Source of the DNA: Corynebacterium otitidis ATCC 51513
GTDB taxonomy: Bacteria > Actinomycetota > Actinomycetes > Mycobacteriales > Mycobacteriaceae
Assembly (NCBI RefSeq): GCF_000296405.1
Contig: NZ_JH815193.1
Coordinates: 62,001-126,000 of the forward strand
Direction of reading: 5' to 3'
Length of the DNA: 64,000 nucleotides
Numbering within the stretch: the stretch's first letter is position 1; the number at the start of each line of letters is the position of its first letter. Under the pieces are notes generated by a model. The model searched no databases and was not told where the DNA came from. It was given only the letters and a program-made list of their open reading frames with translations. A program made the translations under genes and the position numbers. This document shows, one piece after another, positions 15,862-48,193 of the stretch.

Positions 15862-16749
15862 ATGCCCTCCCCCACCAACGACGAGCCCGAAACGAACCCG
15901 CCCGCCCGCAAGAAAGCCAGGCCGCTGGCGCTGTCGCCCTCTCGGGCGTCGGACTACAAGCAGTGCCCGCTGCTCTACCGACTGCGCTCGATCGACAAGA
16001 TCCCCGAGCCGAAGACACTCGCGCAGGTGCGCGGCACGCTGGTGCACGCCGCGCTCGAGGACCTCTACGGCATGCCGCGCGAGGAGCGCACCTTCCCCGC
16101 CGCGGTGAAGCGGCTCAAGCCCCGCTGGGAGGCGATGCGCGCCGACGACCCGGAGCTCGACGAGCTCGTTCCCGAGGTGGAGCTCCACGGCTTCCTCTCC
16201 GAGTGCCGGGAGCTCCTGCGCGGCTACTTCCGGATGGAGAACCCCCAGGGCTTCGACCCGAAGGACCGGGAAATGTTCTTAAACCTCGTGCTGCCCAACG
16301 GGGTGCCGGTGCGCGGCTTCATCGACCGCGTGGACGTCGCTCCCTCCGGGGAGGTGCGCATCGTCGACTACAAGACCGGCAAGAAGCCCAAACCCCGCTT
16401 CCAGGACGGGGCGCTGTTCCAGATGCGCTTCTACGCGCTGGTCTACTGGCGGCTCACCGGAAAGATCCCCGACGTCGAGCGGCTCATGTACCTCAAGGTC
16501 AACGACTCGCTCTACACGAGCCCCACGAAGCAGGAGCTCGAGTACTTCGAGCGCGACCTGGGCCGGCTGTGGGCACAGATCACGCTCGACGGGGAGCACG
16601 GCACGTTCCAGCCGAAGACCTCGAAGCTGTGCGGCTGGTGCTCCTTCCAGAGCCTCTGCCCCGCCTTCGGCGGCACCCCGCCGGAGTACCCCGGCTGGCC
16701 GGGCGCGATGGGCGATCGCAATGACAAGGACACCGGCGGGGGCAACTAA
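15862..16749 (+). CDS. RecB-family PD-(D/E)XK nuclease with probable Fe-S cluster
   Basis: Protein of 295 aa, homologous by position and motifs to Rv2119 and Cas4/AddB-type nucleases. The nuclease core is GFIDRVDV, then VRIVDYKTGKK, where Asp and DYK supply the metal and catalytic residues. One N-terminal Cys (DYKQCPLLYRL) and a C-terminal triplet (CGWCSFQSLC) give the four-cysteine pattern of an AddB-like 4Fe-4S staple. The start MPSPTNDEPE is chosen as the ATG closest to the conserved LSPSRASDYKQC; upstream codons look non-coding. A DNA repair or processing role is inferred. Confidence 0.9.
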   Translation: MPSPTNDEPETNPPARKKARPLALSPSRASDYKQCPLLYRLRSIDKIPEPKTLAQVRGTLVHAALEDLYGMPREERTFPAAVKRLKPRWEAMRADDPELDELVPEVELHGFLSECRELLRGYFRMENPQGFDPKDREMFLNLVLPNGVPVRGFIDRVDVAPSGEVRIVDYKTGKKPKPRFQDGALFQMRFYALVYWRLTGKIPDVERLMYLKVNDSLYTSPTKQELEYFERDLGRLWAQITLDGEHGTFQPKTSKLCGWCSFQSLCPAFGGTPPEYPGWPGAMGDRNDKDTGGGN

Positions 16750-16859
16750 GGCGAGGGCGCTGGCCGATTGCCCGGCCATGCGACCAGGCCGACGCGCCCC
16801 CGGCAGTCCGCTTATCGGGGGCCTCGACCCTCTGACTCGGAATCTCGACCATCCCACTT

Positions 16860-17105
16860 TTGAGGAGGCGAAGCACACTGGCCCGCCACACGAAAAAGAA
16901 AAAGCGCCGCGGATCGAAGCGTCCGCACCTCTGCCCCAAGAACCGAAAGCACCAGTACCGCGCCTACGAGGAGGCCGCCCACGTGGCCATTCTCCGTTCG
17001 CGCGGGGCAGGGCCGCTGGCTATATACCGATGCCCATATTGCAGGACCTGGCATCTCACCAGTAGGCCGCAGCGAGAAAAGGCTCGTCGGCGCGCACGCC
17101 AGTAA
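16860..17105 (+). CDS. Small basic protein with CxxC zinc-ribbon-like motif
   Basis: Up to 81 aa, very basic (KKKKRRGSKR near the N-terminus), with an isolated LCP and a later YRCPYCRTWHLTS motif. Cys-X2-Cys followed by Trp-His-Leu-Thr-Ser resembles small zinc-ribbon proteins common in actinophages and integrated elements. The TTG at 16860 lies inside its own AGGAGG. A CTG codon at 16878 (LARHTKKK) sits 9 bases after that AGGAGG and is an attractive non-canonical start. It is the first gene of the accessory island after the nuclease. Function unknown; nucleic-acid binding is a guess. Confidence 0.6.
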   Translation: MRRRSTLARHTKKKKRRGSKRPHLCPKNRKHQYRAYEEAAHVAILRSRGAGPLAIYRCPYCRTWHLTSRPQREKARRRARQ

Positions 17106-18060
17106 TACCGCCTCGCCGGCGACCCGCGAGCCCGTCCCATTCCGCGGGGTTGCGACCCCGCCAGTTACTTTCCCAGTATGCGCCGTCCCACCACGAGCCA
17201 GCCGGCACGGGTCACGACGGCGTGGGCCTTGCAGGCCAACTGAAAGCTAGGTTGCCTTCGCTGCCCGAGCAAAACGCACCGCGCTGCCCGTTCGCATACA
17301 CCACCGGCGGGCCGATGCGGGCATCGTCTCTCCAGCGAAATCGAGGCACACCGATCGGCTGCCTCCGCGCAGGACACCGCGCTGTGCCACCGCGCGAGAA
17401 ACGACCCCCGGGGCCTGCCGCGCTCGCCCCCGCCGGACTCGCCACGGTAGATCCCGCACCCGGGTGCCACGTGGCGCCCGGCGTCTGCCTCGCCGTCGAC
17501 GACAACAAGACCGCTGCCCAACTGCCCGAACGGCGCGGACACGACGATGCACGGATGATAGCTCCCTTGCTCTCGCCGCGATCGCTGACGAAGAAGACGC
17601 GCGGCATTGACACGATCCCCGAGCGGGATTGAAACTCCTCACGTGGGGGCCGACGGCGACTTCACTCAGCGCACCGATGCGCGCCACAAGATCGTATGTC
17701 TTAGCGAAATCGCCCACGGCCGGCACGGCGAGCCCCTCGCGCCTTGGCCCCGAAACAACAGTCACACTCCGGCGGCCCGAGTGCCGCCCGGAGAACGACA
17801 CTTCGCCGGCACCCGCTCCCGGTGTTCTGCGACATCCCGCGGAGCTAACCAGGCTGGCTGAGCGCGATGGGTTCCAGAGACTGATTTGGCGGGACATAAG
17901 TATCGCACTGGAGCTGACCCGAATACCTGCGCAAACTGAGGGCCCCGCCCAGTCTGACAGTCCCGCCCTGCGGAGCTCGCCGCCTCGGTAACGCAGGCGG
18001 GCGTTATGCGGCGTTCGCACTGACAACAGCTTCGCAACAGGAGCAGATGACCACCTCAAG
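17106..18060 (+). other. Gene-poor stretch with decayed sequence
   Basis: About 950 bp with no convincing intact gene. On the minus strand protein-like segments appear in changing frames: RRSVTVVSGPRREGLAVPA then VGDFAKTYDLVARIGALSEV (about 17640-17780), RVFFVSDRGESKGAIIRASS (about 17545-17605), and HPCIVVSAPFGQLGSGLVVV followed by DGEADAG (about 17485-17550). They could be one gene broken by two frameshifts; I cannot name it. A small hairpin (GCGGGGT/ACCCCGC) lies near 17138-17158. Codon use is mixed. The stretch separates the small Cys protein from the peptide-regulator-ABC locus. Confidence 0.3.
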
Positions 18061-18061
18061 A

Positions 18062-18118
18062 AGTGACCTTAGTCACATTTTGCAGGTTATCGTTGCTATT
18101 CTCCCCTCCACAGTGGAG
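18062..18118 (+). promoter_or_regulatory. Promoter/operator region of the peptide locus
   Basis: AGTGACCTTAGTCACA (18062-18077) matches the corynebacterial GlxR (cAMP receptor) consensus TGTGA-N6-TCACA except at its first base. A weak extended -10 (TGCTATTCT, 18094-18102) follows. Next comes a second inverted repeat, CTCCAC-A-GTGGAG (18106-18118), just downstream of the -10, a typical place for a repressor or autoregulator operator. The peptide start codon is 35 bp further on. Site identities are inferred from pattern only. Confidence 0.5.
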
Positions 18119-18152
18119 AGTTAGTTCACTCCAGCGAGAAGGGGGTGAGATC

Positions 18153-18242
18153 ATGGAACAGCAGATCTTGGAGGATCTGAACAGAGTGCAGACGGTATTT
18201 GCGCAGATGCAGTCGTATTGGAACCACGCGGCGCGCAGCTAG
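18153..18242 (+). CDS. 29-aa peptide, candidate signal or bacteriocin-like peptide
   Basis: Short ORF of 29 codons beginning MEQQILEDLN and ending YWNHAARS. The ribosome-binding site GAAGGGGGTGAG is strong and well spaced, a good reason to think it is translated. Hydrophobic residues at positions 5, 9, 12, 16, 19 and 23 (I, L, V, F, M, W) recur every three to four residues, predicting one amphipathic helix. There is no Sec signal, Cys or lipobox. The HTH-repeat regulator begins 25 bp later and an ABC exporter follows, so a communication peptide or a leaderless antimicrobial is likely. No known family is recognised. Confidence 0.55.
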   Translation: MEQQILEDLNRVQTVFAQMQSYWNHAARS

Positions 18243-18267
18243 AAGCACATCAACTCCGGGAGGGGCC

Positions 18268-19422
18268 ATGACGACCAACGAGCTGACTCGACATCTAGAC
18301 CAGGTGTCCCAAGCGGCCGAGGGGAAGCCATCCCCTCCCGGCTTACTGCGCAGGATCCGGATCGCCCAGAGGATATCCGACAGGACGATCAGAGACCTCG
18401 CGTCACCACATTACCTCACCGATACAGGCGTGCGACGAGCTCCGGAGGCAAAGCTCTTCTGGAACCTTATCCTGGAACATTTTGCCATCGAGGACCGCGT
18501 CCGCTCGGAGGAACTATGCCGGCAGGCCGCCGACGAATCTTCTCAAGGGATTGTCGGACTAATCGACGATATCTCCCTCACGATCGGAGATTACCAACTG
18601 ATGTACCGCATCGTGGCCTCTGCCCTGCCACGGCTAGCTGCACCCTCCGATTCCTACGCGGCCACCGCGGTAGGAATGGTATTAGCAACGGCGGGCGACG
18701 ATAGGTGCGCCGATTTTTTCGACACTGCCTCCGTCGAGCAGCACCCCGTCGACAAGGCAATGAACCTGGTCAGGCTTGCCGCCTACTGCATTAAGAGGAA
18801 AAAGGCCTACCCACGATCTCAGGCAGCGCTCGAACGAGCGGTCGGCATTCTCGATGATAGCGAGCGATCGATTAAACCAGCCGAACGTCACGGCTGCCTC
18901 GCCTCGGTATACAACCTCGCATCACTGCTAGCCCTGCATACCGATGGCCCCATGGAGTCTGCCCGGAGCCTCGAGGCAGCACTCGATCACGCGCGTGAGG
19001 CCGTGATGTACCCGGACCGGCGAAGCGAAAACGCCCGCTACGGGATACAGATCTTTTGCAACCTGGCCCAGCTGCACTGTCTACGGGAGGAATATGAGGA
19101 AACACATAAGGCCATACTAGATAACGGAACCGTTTTTCTTGAACACGCGCCGGAGTACCGCACTGAGGTCGATTCGTGCCTCGCATACATCAACTACCTG
19201 GACGGCCACTTCACGGACGCGACGCGTCACGCGCGAGAGGCGATACGATCAATCGCCCGGCAGGCCTCGCCTCTCCGGCTAGCAGCCACTCGAAAGGTGC
19301 TTATCGGTTCCTTGATTCGTTTGGAACGCACCCACGATGCTGCCGCCGAGCAGGACAAGCTCATCCACGATCCGCTCGGTCTATCGGAGCTCAGCCACGA
19401 TTGCCCGGGAAATTTTAGCTAG
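18268..19422 (+). CDS. HTH plus helical-repeat regulator, RRNPP-like
   Basis: Protein of 384 aa. Residues about 25-75 fit a divergent XRE-type helix-turn-helix: RTIRDLASPHYLTDTGVRRA followed by PEAKLFWNLILEHFAI aligns with the usual recognition helix and 'GRRxP' turn. The rest is all-helical with TPR-like pairs (SQAALERAVGILDDSERS; SLEAALDHAREAV; FCNLAQLHCLREEYEETHKA). This is the architecture of RRNPP peptide-sensing regulators (Rgg, PlcR, AimR). The start ATG has GGGAGGGG upstream. It lies 25 bp after a 29-codon peptide and 9 bp before the ABC ATPase. Codons such as TTA, ATA and AGG, rare in the neighbours, suggest acquisition. The regulator role is inference. Confidence 0.6.
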   Translation: MTTNELTRHLDQVSQAAEGKPSPPGLLRRIRIAQRISDRTIRDLASPHYLTDTGVRRAPEAKLFWNLILEHFAIEDRVRSEELCRQAADESSQGIVGLIDDISLTIGDYQLMYRIVASALPRLAAPSDSYAATAVGMVLATAGDDRCADFFDTASVEQHPVDKAMNLVRLAAYCIKRKKAYPRSQAALERAVGILDDSERSIKPAERHGCLASVYNLASLLALHTDGPMESARSLEAALDHAREAVMYPDRRSENARYGIQIFCNLAQLHCLREEYEETHKAILDNGTVFLEHAPEYRTEVDSCLAYINYLDGHFTDATRHAREAIRSIARQASPLRLAATRKVLIGSLIRLERTHDAAAEQDKLIHDPLGLSELSHDCPGNFS

Positions 19423-19431
19423 AGGTAAATA

Positions 19432-20394
19432 TTGACACGCCTATCCTGTTCCGGGCTACGGAAATCCTATGGCTCGCGCGGTAAAGATGCCGTCTCTCAG
19501 GTCTCACTCGACATCGGACAAGGAAGTATCGTTTCGCTCGTGGGGCCGAACGGCGCGGGCAAGACCACCACGGTGCGGATGCTCGCCACTCTGCTCGCCC
19601 CGAGCGCGGGGAATATCACCGTCTGCGGGATTGATGCCGTGGCGCGGCGTCGCGCCGCGCGCCGACACCTCGGGTTGGTGCTCGGCGGGGACTCCGGCTT
19701 TTATCAGCGCGCCACCCTCCGCGATAACCTGCTCCTCTTCGCCGATATCGCGCGGGTACCTGGCAGCAAGCGTCACGAGCGAGTGTCCTCCGCCCTCGAG
19801 GCCGTCTCTCTTAGCGAGCAGGCCTCCTTACCGGTCTCCGCCCTGTCGAGGGGGATGAACCAGCGGCTCCACATCGCTCGGGGTCTGCTCAACAATCCTG
19901 AAGTGCTACTCCTCGACGAGCCCACCTCTGGCCTCGATCCGGAGGCCGCCCTCGATCTGCGACGTCTGGTCCGTGCACTCGCCAATGAGGGCACCGCCAT
20001 CCTGCTGACCTCCCACTATCTCACCGAGGTCGAGGACCTCAGCGACGAGATCAACGTGATCGTCGACGGTTCTATTGTCGCCACCGGCGGGACGCACGAC
20101 GTGGCGAAGGCCGCCGGCATCGGTGAGGTCACCACCGCGAGCCTGCCGGTCTCGCTCGGCGCAAGCATGGACGATGTGCTCGACCGCTTGCGGGATATCG
20201 ACGGCGTGGTGCGGATCGCCTCCACTCGCTTCGAGGCGCGCGTGCTCATCTCGCTGAGCTGGCGCGCCTCGGCCCGCCCCGCGGTCGGCGCCGTGGAGTC
20301 GCTGCTCGCCGAAGCGGGTGTCAACTCACCGGCGGTGGTCACCAGACCCGCCACGCTGGAGGAGAGCTATCTCGGGCTGGTGGGCGCCGCATGA
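19432..20394 (+). CDS. ABC-2 type transporter ATP-binding protein
   Basis: Protein of 320 aa. Walker A is GPNGAGKTTT, the signature is VSALSRGMNQRLHIA (LSRGM replaces the usual LSGGQ), Walker B is VLLLDEP, and the H-loop is LLTSHYL. A C-terminal extension of about 85 aa follows the nucleotide-binding domain, as in drug/peptide exporters of the CcmA/NodI group. The start is TTG with GAGG 8 bases upstream, 9 bp after the regulator. The ATP site looks complete. With the two permeases it should form an efflux pump; the substrate may be the 29-aa peptide or a toxin. Confidence 0.9.
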   Translation: MTRLSCSGLRKSYGSRGKDAVSQVSLDIGQGSIVSLVGPNGAGKTTTVRMLATLLAPSAGNITVCGIDAVARRRAARRHLGLVLGGDSGFYQRATLRDNLLLFADIARVPGSKRHERVSSALEAVSLSEQASLPVSALSRGMNQRLHIARGLLNNPEVLLLDEPTSGLDPEAALDLRRLVRALANEGTAILLTSHYLTEVEDLSDEINVIVDGSIVATGGTHDVAKAAGIGEVTTASLPVSLGASMDDVLDRLRDIDGVVRIASTRFEARVLISLSWRASARPAVGAVESLLAEAGVNSPAVVTRPATLEESYLGLVGAA

Positions 20395-21122
20395 TGGCTC
20401 TCATCCGGATGGCGGGCTTCCACCTGCGGGAGTTCGCCCGCGTCGGATTCTTCGCGACGCTGCTGGTGACCTCCACGATATCGGTGCTGGCCCTGCAGGC
20501 CCTCGGCTCTCGCGCCACCCCGGATCCCGCGGGCGACGGAGATATCTGGCTGCGCTCCGCGCAGGTGGGCATGTGGACGACCTGCACCGTCGCCGCCGGA
20601 TTCCTCGGTTTCCAGCGTTTCCAGGGCACCTTGGTGCACCTGCTGTTCACGCCCCGCCGCCCGGCTGCGACCCTGCTGCCGATGATCGCGGACGGTTCCC
20701 TATTCGGGCTGCTTGCCTTCCCGCTTGCCGCCTGCCTCGCCGCGCTACTCGGCCTGCCGATCGACGCCGCCAGCCCGGCCGCGATAGCACTCGGAATCCC
20801 CGCGCTGTGGCTGGCGTGCCTAAGCCTCTGCACGATTATTAGCCCACTTTTCGTCCTCACCCCCAACGCGATCGCTTACGAGGGGCTACTCGCCGCGCCT
20901 ATCGTGTTGCTCTCCGGGGTGTTCGGTTATCCCAACGACACCCTGGCTTATATTGGTTGGCTGCTTCCCACCGCGCATGGGATCGCCGTTCTTAACGGCG
21001 GCGGGCTGTGGCATCTCGCGGCAGGACTGACGCTGAGCGGGTTATTCGCCGCGTTAGGCTGCCTGCTACTACGCCGCGCCGACGATAAGGCCACCCGAGC
21101 AGGAAGCCTGGAGATCATATGA
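20391..21122 (+). CDS. ABC-2 transporter permease, first subunit
   Basis: Integral membrane protein of 243 aa with six hydrophobic stretches, beginning MMALIRMAGFHLREFARVGFF, the usual cytoplasmic coupling helix of ABC-2 permeases. Its ATG overlaps the ATPase stop (ATGA), so translation is coupled. The last segment, SGLFAALGCLLLRRADDK, ends in the positive-inside anchor. No ABC-2 sub-family can be assigned by eye. It acts with the second permease as a likely heterodimer. Confidence 0.85.
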   Translation: MMALIRMAGFHLREFARVGFFATLLVTSTISVLALQALGSRATPDPAGDGDIWLRSAQVGMWTTCTVAAGFLGFQRFQGTLVHLLFTPRRPAATLLPMIADGSLFGLLAFPLAACLAALLGLPIDAASPAAIALGIPALWLACLSLCTIISPLFVLTPNAIAYEGLLAAPIVLLSGVFGYPNDTLAYIGWLLPTAHGIAVLNGGGLWHLAAGLTLSGLFAALGCLLLRRADDKATRAGSLEII

Positions 21123-21898
21123 ATGGCCTGCGCACTCATATCAAGGTGGCCGTCCGCTCGACACCGGCGTTGGCGAACGGCTCCACCGCGGTCACCACCT
21201 TGGGGCTTATCCCCTTAATCGAGACGGTCTTCCTCGTCGCCGTGGCCACCGCCGTCAACAGCCCCGAGACGACCATGACAGCCTACGCCGGGCTGATCGT
21301 CGGGGCAATCACCGCGACGATGGGCGGCGGGGTAGGCGCGGTGGCCCGCGACCGGGCGCTCGGGGTACTTGCCGAGGTGATCAGCTTCGGCCCCTTCAAC
21401 CCGAAGCTGTGGCTCGCCCGCTTCCTGCCGGCCGCCGCCGTCACGGTGGTGTCCTCCGCGATCGGGGCGTGTGGCATATATGCGCTTGACTCGACCCACG
21501 ACGTCGAAAGGCTCGTGGTGGCGCTGCTCGCCATTCTTGCCGCCGTGCCAGTGGGGGTCAGCGCTGGGATGGCCTGTGCGGCCGCGGCGACGGTGCTGCG
21601 CGACCCGTTTGCCGTCGTCAATGTGGTGGCCCCGCTGCTGCCCATCACTGCCGGCGTGATCCTCCCGCACGAGGCGTATCCCCCGGTGTTCAAAGAACTC
21701 GCCGCGCTGTGCCCGGGAACCTGGCTCATCGACGCGCTGCGCTCCGCGGCCGTCCCGGGTGTGGGCCTGGCGGAATCCGCGCCCGCCCTCGCGTTGGAGG
21801 GACTAGTCTGCGCCGGCTGGCTCGGGGTGGGGCTCGCTGCGATCGGCTGGGCCGCCAGGCGCGTCTATCGCACCGGCGACAACAGAGCGCTGCTCTAG
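21119..21898 (+). CDS. ABC-2 transporter permease, second subunit
   Basis: Integral membrane protein of 259 aa with six hydrophobic segments. The C-terminal half has the ABC-2 look (VVNVVAPLLPITAGVILPHEAYPPVF, then LAALCPGTWLIDALRSAAVPG). The start overlaps the upstream permease stop (ATGA). It is the last gene of the peptide-regulator-ABC locus, followed by a strong terminator shared with fhs. Export or immunity for a peptide is inferred from context only. Confidence 0.85.
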   Translation: MNGLRTHIKVAVRSTPALANGSTAVTTLGLIPLIETVFLVAVATAVNSPETTMTAYAGLIVGAITATMGGGVGAVARDRALGVLAEVISFGPFNPKLWLARFLPAAAVTVVSSAIGACGIYALDSTHDVERLVVALLAILAAVPVGVSAGMACAAAATVLRDPFAVVNVVAPLLPITAGVILPHEAYPPVFKELAALCPGTWLIDALRSAAVPGVGLAESAPALALEGLVCAGWLGVGLAAIGWAARRVYRTGDNRALL

Positions 21899-22067
21899 CA
21901 GCTTCTTCGCCCGAGGGACGAGGACCTGGTAGGCGTAGCCTGGGCGAGCCGTTGTCCGGCCCCACCACCGCGAGACATCTCGCCGGTGGGCTTCTCCCAG
22001 CGGCCGGCCGCATGCTGTCCTCGGGAGGCGATCGCACGCCCCACAGTGGCTATTTCTTGTGGGCTCT

Positions 22068-22111
22068 AAAAGCCCGCCCCGGAAGCGTTCGTGCTTCCGG
22101 GGCGGGCTTTT
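22068..22111. terminator. Bidirectional terminator between ABC locus and fhs
   Basis: Perfect inverted repeat: AAAAGCCCGCCCCGGAAGC, loop GTTCGT, then the complementary arm ending in GGGCTTTT. The stem is GC-rich and both strands end in a T run, so it can serve the plus-strand ABC genes and the convergent fhs gene. Confidence 0.9.
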
Positions 22112-22154
22112 CACGGCAACGCGGCACGTACGCCGCGGCTAGGGCGTGGTCCTC

Positions 22155-23813
22155 TTAGAAGAGGCCGACGACCTTGCCTTCCTCGTCGATGTCGATCTTC
22201 TCCGCCGAGGGCTTCTTCGGCAGGCCCGGCATCGTCATGACGTTGCCGGTGAGAGCGACGACGAAGCCGGCGCCGGTGCGCGGCTGCAGCTCGCGGACCG
22301 TGAGGGTGTGGCCCTCCGGGGCGCCGAGCTCGGAGGCGTCGTCGGAGAAGGAGAACTGGTTCTTCGAGACGCACACCGGGAGCTTGTCCCAGCCGTTGTC
22401 CTTGAGCTTCTTCAAGTCCTTCTTCGCGTCCTTGGTGAAGACGACCTTGTCGGCGTGGTAGAGCTCCTTGGCGATGGTGTTGAGCGTCGCCTCGACGCCC
22501 TCCTCCGGGTCGTAGAGCTGCTTGGAGCCCTCGCCGAGGTTGTCGAGCACCTTCTTCGCCAGGTCGCGGGCGCCCTCGCCGCCCTCGGCCCAGACCTTGG
22601 ACTCGGAGAGCGCGACGCCGAAGTCCTCGGCCCACTTCGCCATGAACTCGCGCTCCTTGTCGGAGTCGATCGGGAAGAGGTTGAGGGCGACGACCGGCTC
22701 GACGCCGAACTTGCGGAGGTTCTCGATGTGGCGCTCGAGGTTGGGCAGGCCGGCCTTGAGCGCGTCGAGGTTCTCCTCGTTGAGGTCGTCCTTCGCGACG
22801 CCGCCGTTGTACTTCAGCGAGCGGATGGTCGCGACGATGACCGCGCCGGCGGCCGAGAGGCCGCCGAAGCGGGCCTTGATGTCGAAGAACTTCTCCGCGC
22901 CGAGGTCCGCGCCGAAGCCCGCCTCGGTGAAGACGTAGTCCGCGGTGCGCAGCGCCGTGTCGGTGGCGAGCAGCGTGTTGCAGCCGTGCGCAATGTTCGC
23001 GAACGGGCCGCCGTGCACGTAGGCTGGGGTGCCGCCGAGGGTCTGCACGAGGTTCGGGTTGATGGTGTCCTTGAGCAGGACGGTCAGCGCGCCCTCGGCC
23101 TTGAGCTCGCGGACGGTGACGGGCTTCTTGTCGTAGGTCAGCCCGATGTTGATGTTGCCGATGCGCTCCTTGAGGTCGGAGAGCGACGTCGCGAGCCCGA
23201 CGACCGCCATGATCTCGGAGGCGGCGGTGATGGTGAAGCCGTCCTGGCGGGGCACGCCCGAGGTGGGGCCCCCCAGGCCGACGACCACGTGGCGCAGGGC
23301 GCGGTCGTTGACGTCGACGCAGCGCTGCCAGGTGACCTGGCGCGGGTCGATGTTGAGCTCGTTGCCCTGGTGGATGTGGTTGTCGATGATCGAGGCGAGC
23401 GTGTTGTTCGCCGCGGTGATCGCGTGGAAGTCGCCGGTGAAGTGGAGGTTGATGTCCTCCATCGGGACGACCTGCGAGTAGCCGCCGCCGGCAGCGCCGC
23501 CCTTGACGCCCATGACCGGGCCCTGGGAGGGCTCGCGGATCGCGGCGATGGCGTTCTTGCCCTCGAGGGTGAAGGCGTCGGCCAGGCCGATGAGCGTGGT
23601 GGACTTGCCCTCGCCGGCGGGCGTCGGGGACATGCCGGTGACGAGGATCAGCTTGCCCTTGCGGGGCTGGTCGGCCACGAGGCTGGCGTCGACCTTGGCC
23701 TTGTTGCCGCCGTACGGGATGAACGCGTCGTCCGGGATCCCCGCGCGCTTCGCGATATCCTCGATAGGCTCCAGCTTGTGGTTCTGTGCGATTTCGACAT
23801 CGGAAAGTGCCAT
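22155..23813 (-). CDS. fhs: Formate--tetrahydrofolate ligase
   Basis: Makes 10-formyl-tetrahydrofolate from formate, ATP and THF, feeding purine and one-carbon metabolism. It is 552 aa, the usual length. The ATP-binding loop is MSPTPAGEGKSTTLIGLADAF. The family segments REPSQGPVMGVKGGAAGGGY and LHFTGDFHAITAANN are intact. The start MALSDVEIAQNHKLEPI has no competing upstream codon. It is divergent from a DUF202 pair with 76 bp between, and convergent with the ABC locus. It lies in the segment that breaks the recB-to-hisG order of M. tuberculosis. Confidence 0.97.
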   Translation of the reverse strand: MALSDVEIAQNHKLEPIEDIAKRAGIPDDAFIPYGGNKAKVDASLVADQPRKGKLILVTGMSPTPAGEGKSTTLIGLADAFTLEGKNAIAAIREPSQGPVMGVKGGAAGGGYSQVVPMEDINLHFTGDFHAITAANNTLASIIDNHIHQGNELNIDPRQVTWQRCVDVNDRALRHVVVGLGGPTSGVPRQDGFTITAASEIMAVVGLATSLSDLKERIGNINIGLTYDKKPVTVRELKAEGALTVLLKDTINPNLVQTLGGTPAYVHGGPFANIAHGCNTLLATDTALRTADYVFTEAGFGADLGAEKFFDIKARFGGLSAAGAVIVATIRSLKYNGGVAKDDLNEENLDALKAGLPNLERHIENLRKFGVEPVVALNLFPIDSDKEREFMAKWAEDFGVALSESKVWAEGGEGARDLAKKVLDNLGEGSKQLYDPEEGVEATLNTIAKELYHADKVVFTKDAKKDLKKLKDNGWDKLPVCVSKNQFSFSDDASELGAPEGHTLTVRELQPRTGAGFVVALTGNVMTMPGLPKKPSAEKIDIDEEGKVVGLF

Positions 23814-47903: not shown

Positions 47904-48096
47904 CGCCGCTCCCCGCGGAGCCGATTTATATTCGCTCCGAGATCACGGCAGCGGCGCGCAACGCCACAGGTCACAGACAGCTTAGTTCACATTTAGCCGG
48001 CCCCGAGCTGGTCGCGCCCCTCGCCGCGCACCGGTCGGGGCCGTTTGCGCTGTTAGGGTTGTCCGCAAGCCAGACACCTATTCTGAGCGGCCGAAA

Positions 48097-48172
48097 GACC
48101 CGGCTTAACGACGCCGCAGCAACCCACTCCGCCCCGCCTCTTTGGGGACGGGAAGGGTGCTAACGCCGGGTT
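48097..48172 (+). promoter_or_regulatory. Structured metF leader resembling a SAM riboswitch
   Basis: Nested helices can be drawn. An outer stem pairs GACCCGGC (48097-48104) with GCCGGGTT (48165-48172). An inner stem pairs AGCAACCC (48118-48125) with GGGTGCT (48155-48161). A terminal stem pairs CCGCCCC with GGGGACGG. The segments GCAACCC and GGGTGCTAACGCC match the conserved core of the SAM-I/SAM-IV riboswitch clan (GCAACC, GGTGCTAA-N2-CC). The K-turn half is less clear. It ends 21 bp before the metF start. A repressing SAM sensor is inferred. Confidence 0.5.
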
Positions 48173-48193
48173 CGATGGGAAAGAAGAGCTTCG

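Follow-up and report, generated by a model that had tools for sequence, protein, structure and literature searches.

Leaderless bacteriocins and phenol-soluble modulins are cationic or strongly hydrophobic amphipathic helices, and phenol-soluble modulins have an ABC exporter of their own. Regulatory upstream ORFs are known before resistance or transporter genes, and proteins of the TPR-like fold class often bind peptides. A further kind of leaderless peptide appears in passages of PMC10518010, which describe the communication peptides of RopB relatives as mature 8-aa products without secretion signals, also mention longer precursor forms, and name TIGR01716 as the Rgg C-terminal profile. Here we examine a 29-codon frame, ORF29, in a 64,000-nucleotide stretch of the Corynebacterium otitidis ATCC 51513 genome (the window), where it precedes genes for an orphan protein and a transporter and shares some features with each of these systems.

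Translation signals and peptide properties of ORF29

ORF29 (18153-18242, + strand) consists of an ATG, 29 codons in all and a stop, and translates to MEQQILEDLNRVQTVFAQMQSYWNHAARS, a peptide without Cys, Gly, Pro or Lys whose net charge (K+R minus D+E) is -1. The translation agrees with the initial annotation, which had described a 29-aa ORF without Cys or leader and of near-neutral charge; the hallmarks of lantibiotics, lasso peptides and double-glycine bacteriocins, from which it had set the peptide apart, are all absent. A longer in-frame ORF of 59 aa would begin at GTG 18063, and its Gly-Gly is encoded by Shine-Dalgarno bases; as this GTG sits inside the putative control region described below, we disfavoured it and preferred the ATG. 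The Shine-Dalgarno region of ORF29 (18139-18148, + strand) has a duplex energy of -14.2 kcal/mol, which makes it the strongest among the window's 129 ATG ORFs with 20-60 aa; no other reaches this level, and the gene that follows has -10.8 kcal/mol. The ORF29 frame has the top codon score of the six frames with both codon tables that were used, and its score was matched by 6 of 3000 base shuffles with the table from long window genes and by 33 of 3000 with the table from the four downstream genes. A score as low as that of ORF29 occurs in only 3.8% of 28-codon pieces from real (long) genes, and 21% of wrong-frame pieces equal or exceed it. From its strong ribosome-binding site and codon score, ORF29 is probably translated, and we consider it likely to be a real small gene.

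The peptide had also been called amphipathic, which it is to a moderate degree: taken over the full 29 residues, its 100-degree moment of 0.417 is matched by 0.4% of 20,000 shuffles of the residues, whereas the top 18-residue window and the heptad count are equalled by 8% and 10% of shuffles, respectively, neither being significant. Within the window, 7 of the 214 ORFs of 24-60 aa reach this moment and one reaches both moment and heptad count. The same moment is attained by 12.4% of 29-residue segments cut from the neighbouring 384-aa protein and by 0-6.5% of those from five other window proteins, so the amphipathicity of ORF29, moderate as observed, is not exceptional for a helical segment. 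Mean hydrophobicity is -0.10, and the sequence holds no hydrophobic signal segment.

We searched for relatives in 242 genomes of the genus, the source genome (2.12 Mb) included, and the peptide had none below E 0.2 among the 241 others; matches at E <= 10 in 17 of these genomes (E 0.2-1.4, 32-69% identity over 16-26 residues) were taken as chance. Plasmids and phages gave no match at E <= 10. No family matched at its curated cut-off, and both MbeD (E 0.013, 15.8 bits against a cut-off of 60) and the weak match to POTRA_3 (E 0.25) were rejected. Shortness, lack of relatives, a codon score within the range of wrong-frame pieces and two unremarkable amphipathicity measures would all suit a chance ORF in a 5' untranslated region, without translation to any effect. 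Such an ORF would, however, have to carry by accident an outstanding Shine-Dalgarno before its ATG, the best codon frame of six and a significant whole-peptide moment, and we regard this explanation as unlikely.

Operon layout, putative control region and accessory setting

Four genes follow ORF29 on the + strand. The first, 25 bp downstream (18268-19422), encodes an orphan protein of 384 aa whose model is all-helical and TPR-like and which may be a regulator; after a further 9 bp comes a DrrA-like ABC ATPase with a TTG start (19432-20394); the ATPase gene overlaps that of ABC-2 permease 1 (20391-21122) by 4 bp, as does the latter the gene of ABC-2 permease 2 (21119-21898). ORF29 is thus likely the first cistron of a tight five-gene operon. 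Upstream of it, a GlxR-like palindrome, AGTGACCTTAGTCACA (18062-18077, + strand), shows 2 mismatches to the consensus TGTGANNTANNTCACA as given in a passage of PMC4254451. Matches to this consensus number two in the window against 0.19 expected; genome-wide they number only 7, against 4 for a reversed control, so the putative site is a lead only. A Crp-family gene is present in the genome (68 bits, L082). A possible -10 hexamer read by eye, TATTCT (18097-18102, + strand), would imply a transcript start near 18111; its distance of 41.5 bp to the palindrome centre resembles the geometry of class II CRP activation. A consensus promoter scan of 16700-22200 returned no sigma-70 promoter. At the possible transcript start lies another palindrome, CTCCAC-A-GTGGAG (18106-18118, + strand), which may be a chance occurrence. 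Elsewhere in the window, a SAM riboswitch match at 48075-48181 scores 45.6 bits, just over the gathering score of 44.4.

The operon lies in a 5.4-kb block (16750-22154) bounded on the left by a RecB-like nuclease gene (15862-16749, + strand) and on the right by fhs (22155-23813, - strand, opposite to the operon). These two flanking genes share a contig in 42 of the 44 genus genomes that have both (the source genome included) and lie on different contigs in the other two. Of the 42, 29 have them in convergent orientation with a gap of no more than 250 bp, 9 have a gap of 511-5470 bp (5411 bp here), and in 4 the genes are over 55 kb from each other and do not converge, all gaps being measured between match ends and approximate only. 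Of 48 genomes with an fhs match, the comparison covers 44; the remaining four, which belong to other genera, were dropped (in two the genes are on different contigs, in two they share a contig but lie far apart). Apart from the gap described here, eight are of the larger kind, and seven of these, inspected by eye, differ in gene content. Since 29 of 42 genomes leave no more than 250 bp between the two genes and the other larger gaps differ in content, this comparison of sequences marks the block as accessory cargo; the variable RecB-like/fhs junction may be worth searching for more such cargo in the genus. By eye, such cargo (L147-L153) includes a sugar-type ABC importer set (L147), a HigA-like antitoxin (L153) and unnamed genes.

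The block may itself be composite in origin, since ORF29 and the 384-aa gene have a lower GC content (0.57-0.60) than the window as a whole (0.705), a dip that the ABC genes (0.66-0.70) do not share. At its left end lies an 81-aa ORF (16860-17105), Lys/Arg-rich with a CPYC-type motif and weakly like phage families of unknown function (phrog_15216, E 1.5e-4), followed by about 950 bp (17106-18060) without a recognisable gene. The one ORF examined in that interval (17629-17991) had no family match, and 16750-18300 had no DNA match in plasmids or phages.

Transporter, orphan protein and possible roles of ORF29

The ATPase matches PF00005 well above its cut-off (104.4 bits versus 25) and TIGR01188 drrA below it (216.4 bits versus 312.45); a score of 152.7 bits against TIGR03740, under the cut-off of 309.75, led us to reject lantibiotic protection ABC transporter as its identity. 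Permease 2 exceeds the PF01061 cut-off of 26.9 (51.4 bits), and permease 1 falls just under it (23.3 bits) and has up to 51% identity to permeases of related loci. By these families, the ATPase and permeases are a transporter of ABC-2 (exporter) type, and the adjacent ABC pump of the initial annotation is indeed present, apparently in the same operon. Relatives of permease 2 occur in 16 of the 241 other genus genomes (best 43% identity) and in none of 395 other genomes of a phylum sample at E <= 1e-15; plasmids gave no match at E <= 1e-5, and a search of genome contigs with peptide patterns found nothing. We compared the exporter neighbourhoods of 13 of the 16 genomes; the three genomes with the weakest matches and two more G487 loci were left out. 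None of the 13 contained an ORF29 match (tblastn, E <= 1), and the sole match to the 384-aa protein at the same threshold (L046; 29 residues, E 0.77) was taken as chance; the genes upstream of the related exporters are others than ORF29 and the 384-aa gene. Before the ATPase gene we also looked for short ATG ORFs whose Shine-Dalgarno reaches -8 kcal/mol or stronger; 11 loci were scanned (L046 and L051, whose ATPase match was not at E < 1e-40, were left out), and five ORFs emerged at three of them, none like ORF29 by eye. Upstream of the related ATPase at locus L048 of genome G487, a 1089-aa ORF with a Cas9-like start was seen by eye.

These comparisons bear on the earlier reading that the peptide leaves the cell, leaderless, through the adjoining ABC-2 transporter as an antimicrobial or a signal. 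Although the transporter is encoded in the same operon and the peptide is leaderless and partly amphipathic, pump relatives occur without such a peptide in 13 of 13 neighbourhoods, which weakens export as the purpose of the pump, and the five short ORFs at 3 of 11 related loci do not resemble ORF29 by eye. A net charge of -1 and a mean hydrophobicity of -0.10, unlike those of typical leaderless bacteriocins, speak against this reading, as does the lack of a family match at curated cut-offs. The gene closest to ORF29, moreover, is that of the 384-aa protein (25 bp) and not the pump. We consider export improbable, about as unlikely as a chance ORF or slightly more so.

The 384-aa protein had no significant match in Pfam, NCBIfam, PHROGs, PADLOC or PDB sequences; no NCBIfam family matched at E up to 10, and hence neither did TIGR01716. 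It was found in none of 150 other genus genomes at E <= 0.001. In the order sample, 68 of 297 other genomes gave matches at E <= 10, the best of which (7.2e-4) has ~30% identity over ~107 residues inside a much longer frame. Weak matches in several genomes of one genus of this order, g22, to which that best match also belongs (L003, L004, L007, L011, L014, L016), cover residues 114-220 at E 7e-4 to 0.05 and sit in frames of ~950-1540 codons. In the phylum sample, 5 of 395 other genomes matched at E <= 0.01; the best (0.00185, G640) was rejected as a relative, looking like a sigma factor by eye and giving E 7.5 in a BLASTP of the two proteins. As the genus, order and phylum samples share genomes, at most 842 other genomes were covered, and none of them gave anything better than E 7e-4. 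No match was found in plasmids or phages (E <= 1) or in viral contigs, and a peptide-pattern search of genome contigs returned nothing.

A single-sequence model of the protein is all-helical (pLDDT 66, pTM 0.53). Its Foldseek matches, headed by TPR and other repeat proteins, were weak (E 0.05 at best), and the known peptide receptors phAimR (rank 31, E 0.35) and PrgX (rank 40, E 0.40) did no better than unrelated helical repeats. The best VIA-align Z of 12.7 is within the range that helical repeats give without relationship, and no RRNPP receptor is among the 50 matches listed, which excludes nothing. Modelled alone, the N-terminal 104 residues gave a poor model (pLDDT 64.5, pTM 0.33) with no match below E 3.5, and neither Pfam nor this model revealed a domain or helix-turn-helix there. 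The models suggest a TPR-like fold; that the protein is a regulator, as its earlier label had it, is a guess, since no DNA-binding domain could be shown with Pfam, NCBIfam or the N-terminal model.

Tentatively, we favour an intracellular role, in which ORF29 would be a genuine small gene, the first cistron of the accessory operon at the RecB-like/fhs junction, whose product would stay in the cell as an amphipathic helix, bind the TPR-like helical protein encoded 25 bp downstream and thereby control expression or activity of the operon's ABC-2 transporter. We chose this reading, possible though short of probable, because it joins a strong translation signal, an amphipathic helix and an adjoining protein that may belong to a fold class in which peptide binding is frequent. 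Consistent with it are the top Shine-Dalgarno of 129 short ATG ORFs, a moment reached by 0.4% of shuffles, the best codon frame of six (6/3000 and 33/3000 base shuffles), the tight spacing (25 bp, 9 bp, 4-bp overlaps), the accessory site, and an all-helical model with TPR and repeat proteins among its weak Foldseek matches. Against it, peptide and protein both lack relatives, so conservation lends no support; the codon score is low for real genes (3.8%) and equalled by 21% of wrong-frame pieces; two of three amphipathicity measures are not significant; the Foldseek matches are weak and unspecific, with phAimR and PrgX at ranks 31 and 40 only; and no domain is recognised in the N-terminal part.

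Nearly as likely is a cis-acting leader ORF, with an inert peptide, in which translation of ORF29 or stalling within it would open or close the ribosome-binding site of the 384-aa gene by coupling or attenuation. Its position 25 bp before the next start and its strong Shine-Dalgarno fit such a role. With the ORF29 region masked in the folding, the next Shine-Dalgarno is predicted to become more accessible (0.51 instead of 0.38), as is the next AUG (0.87 instead of 0.66). When ORF29 codons were shuffled, only 8.3% of 300 shuffles left that Shine-Dalgarno as inaccessible as observed; the start codon of the 384-aa gene, however, was hidden equally or more in 83% and is not unusual. Folding of the RNA 18100-18290 is no stronger than that of shuffled sequences (z -0.85, with 41 of 200 shuffles equal or better), a search of the ORF29 region gave no terminator-like site on the + strand, and an amphipathic peptide would be superfluous for a pure leader. 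The folding evidence for this reading is weak and in part contrary.

The favoured binding of the peptide to the 384-aa protein would, if borne out, mean that an accessory transporter is under peptide-receptor control, through a receptor matching none of the families searched. We think it very doubtful that the operon goes further and forms a peptide-receptor-exporter cassette of a new family, in which a leaderless 29-aa ligand, a cytosolic TPR-like receptor unrelated in sequence to known RRNPP families and an ABC-2 exporter would serve cell-cell or self-sensing. For now ORF29 is a lead: a plausible orphan small gene carried on accessory DNA, a good candidate of the kind missed by annotation, and no more than an ordinary one unless its translation and binding can be demonstrated.

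Comparison with described systems

The transporter resembles the DrrAB type in that its ATPase is best matched by TIGR01188 drrA and its permeases are of the ABC2_membrane kind, but the ATPase scores below the drrA cut-off, the permeases are two separate proteins, and ORF29 and the 384-aa gene precede them. With leaderless bacteriocins and phenol-soluble modulins ORF29 shares the absence of a leader, some helical amphipathicity and ABC transporter genes nearby; it differs from them in being slightly acidic and polar and in having no family match. As for the dedicated exporter of phenol-soluble modulins, the ORF29 operon does include an ABC-2 transporter, one whose relatives occur without the peptide. 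Like regulatory upstream ORFs, ORF29 is short, has its own strong ribosome-binding site and immediately precedes another gene of a transporter operon, whereas significant RNA structure, a stalling motif or an attenuator was not found for it. The leaderless communication peptides, as described in the passages cited above, likewise have no secretion signal, but they measure about 8 residues against the 29 of ORF29, whose 384-aa neighbour has no Rgg-type match. RRNPP propeptides carry a secretion signal whereas ORF29 has no hydrophobic signal segment, and the 384-aa protein differs from RRNPP receptors in having no Rgg family match; no helix-turn-helix was recognised in it, on a poor N-terminal model, and its structural matches were not specific. 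With the RRNPP systems (Rgg, PrgX, AimR) the locus nonetheless shares its arrangement, a short ORF beside the gene for a protein of possible TPR-like fold.
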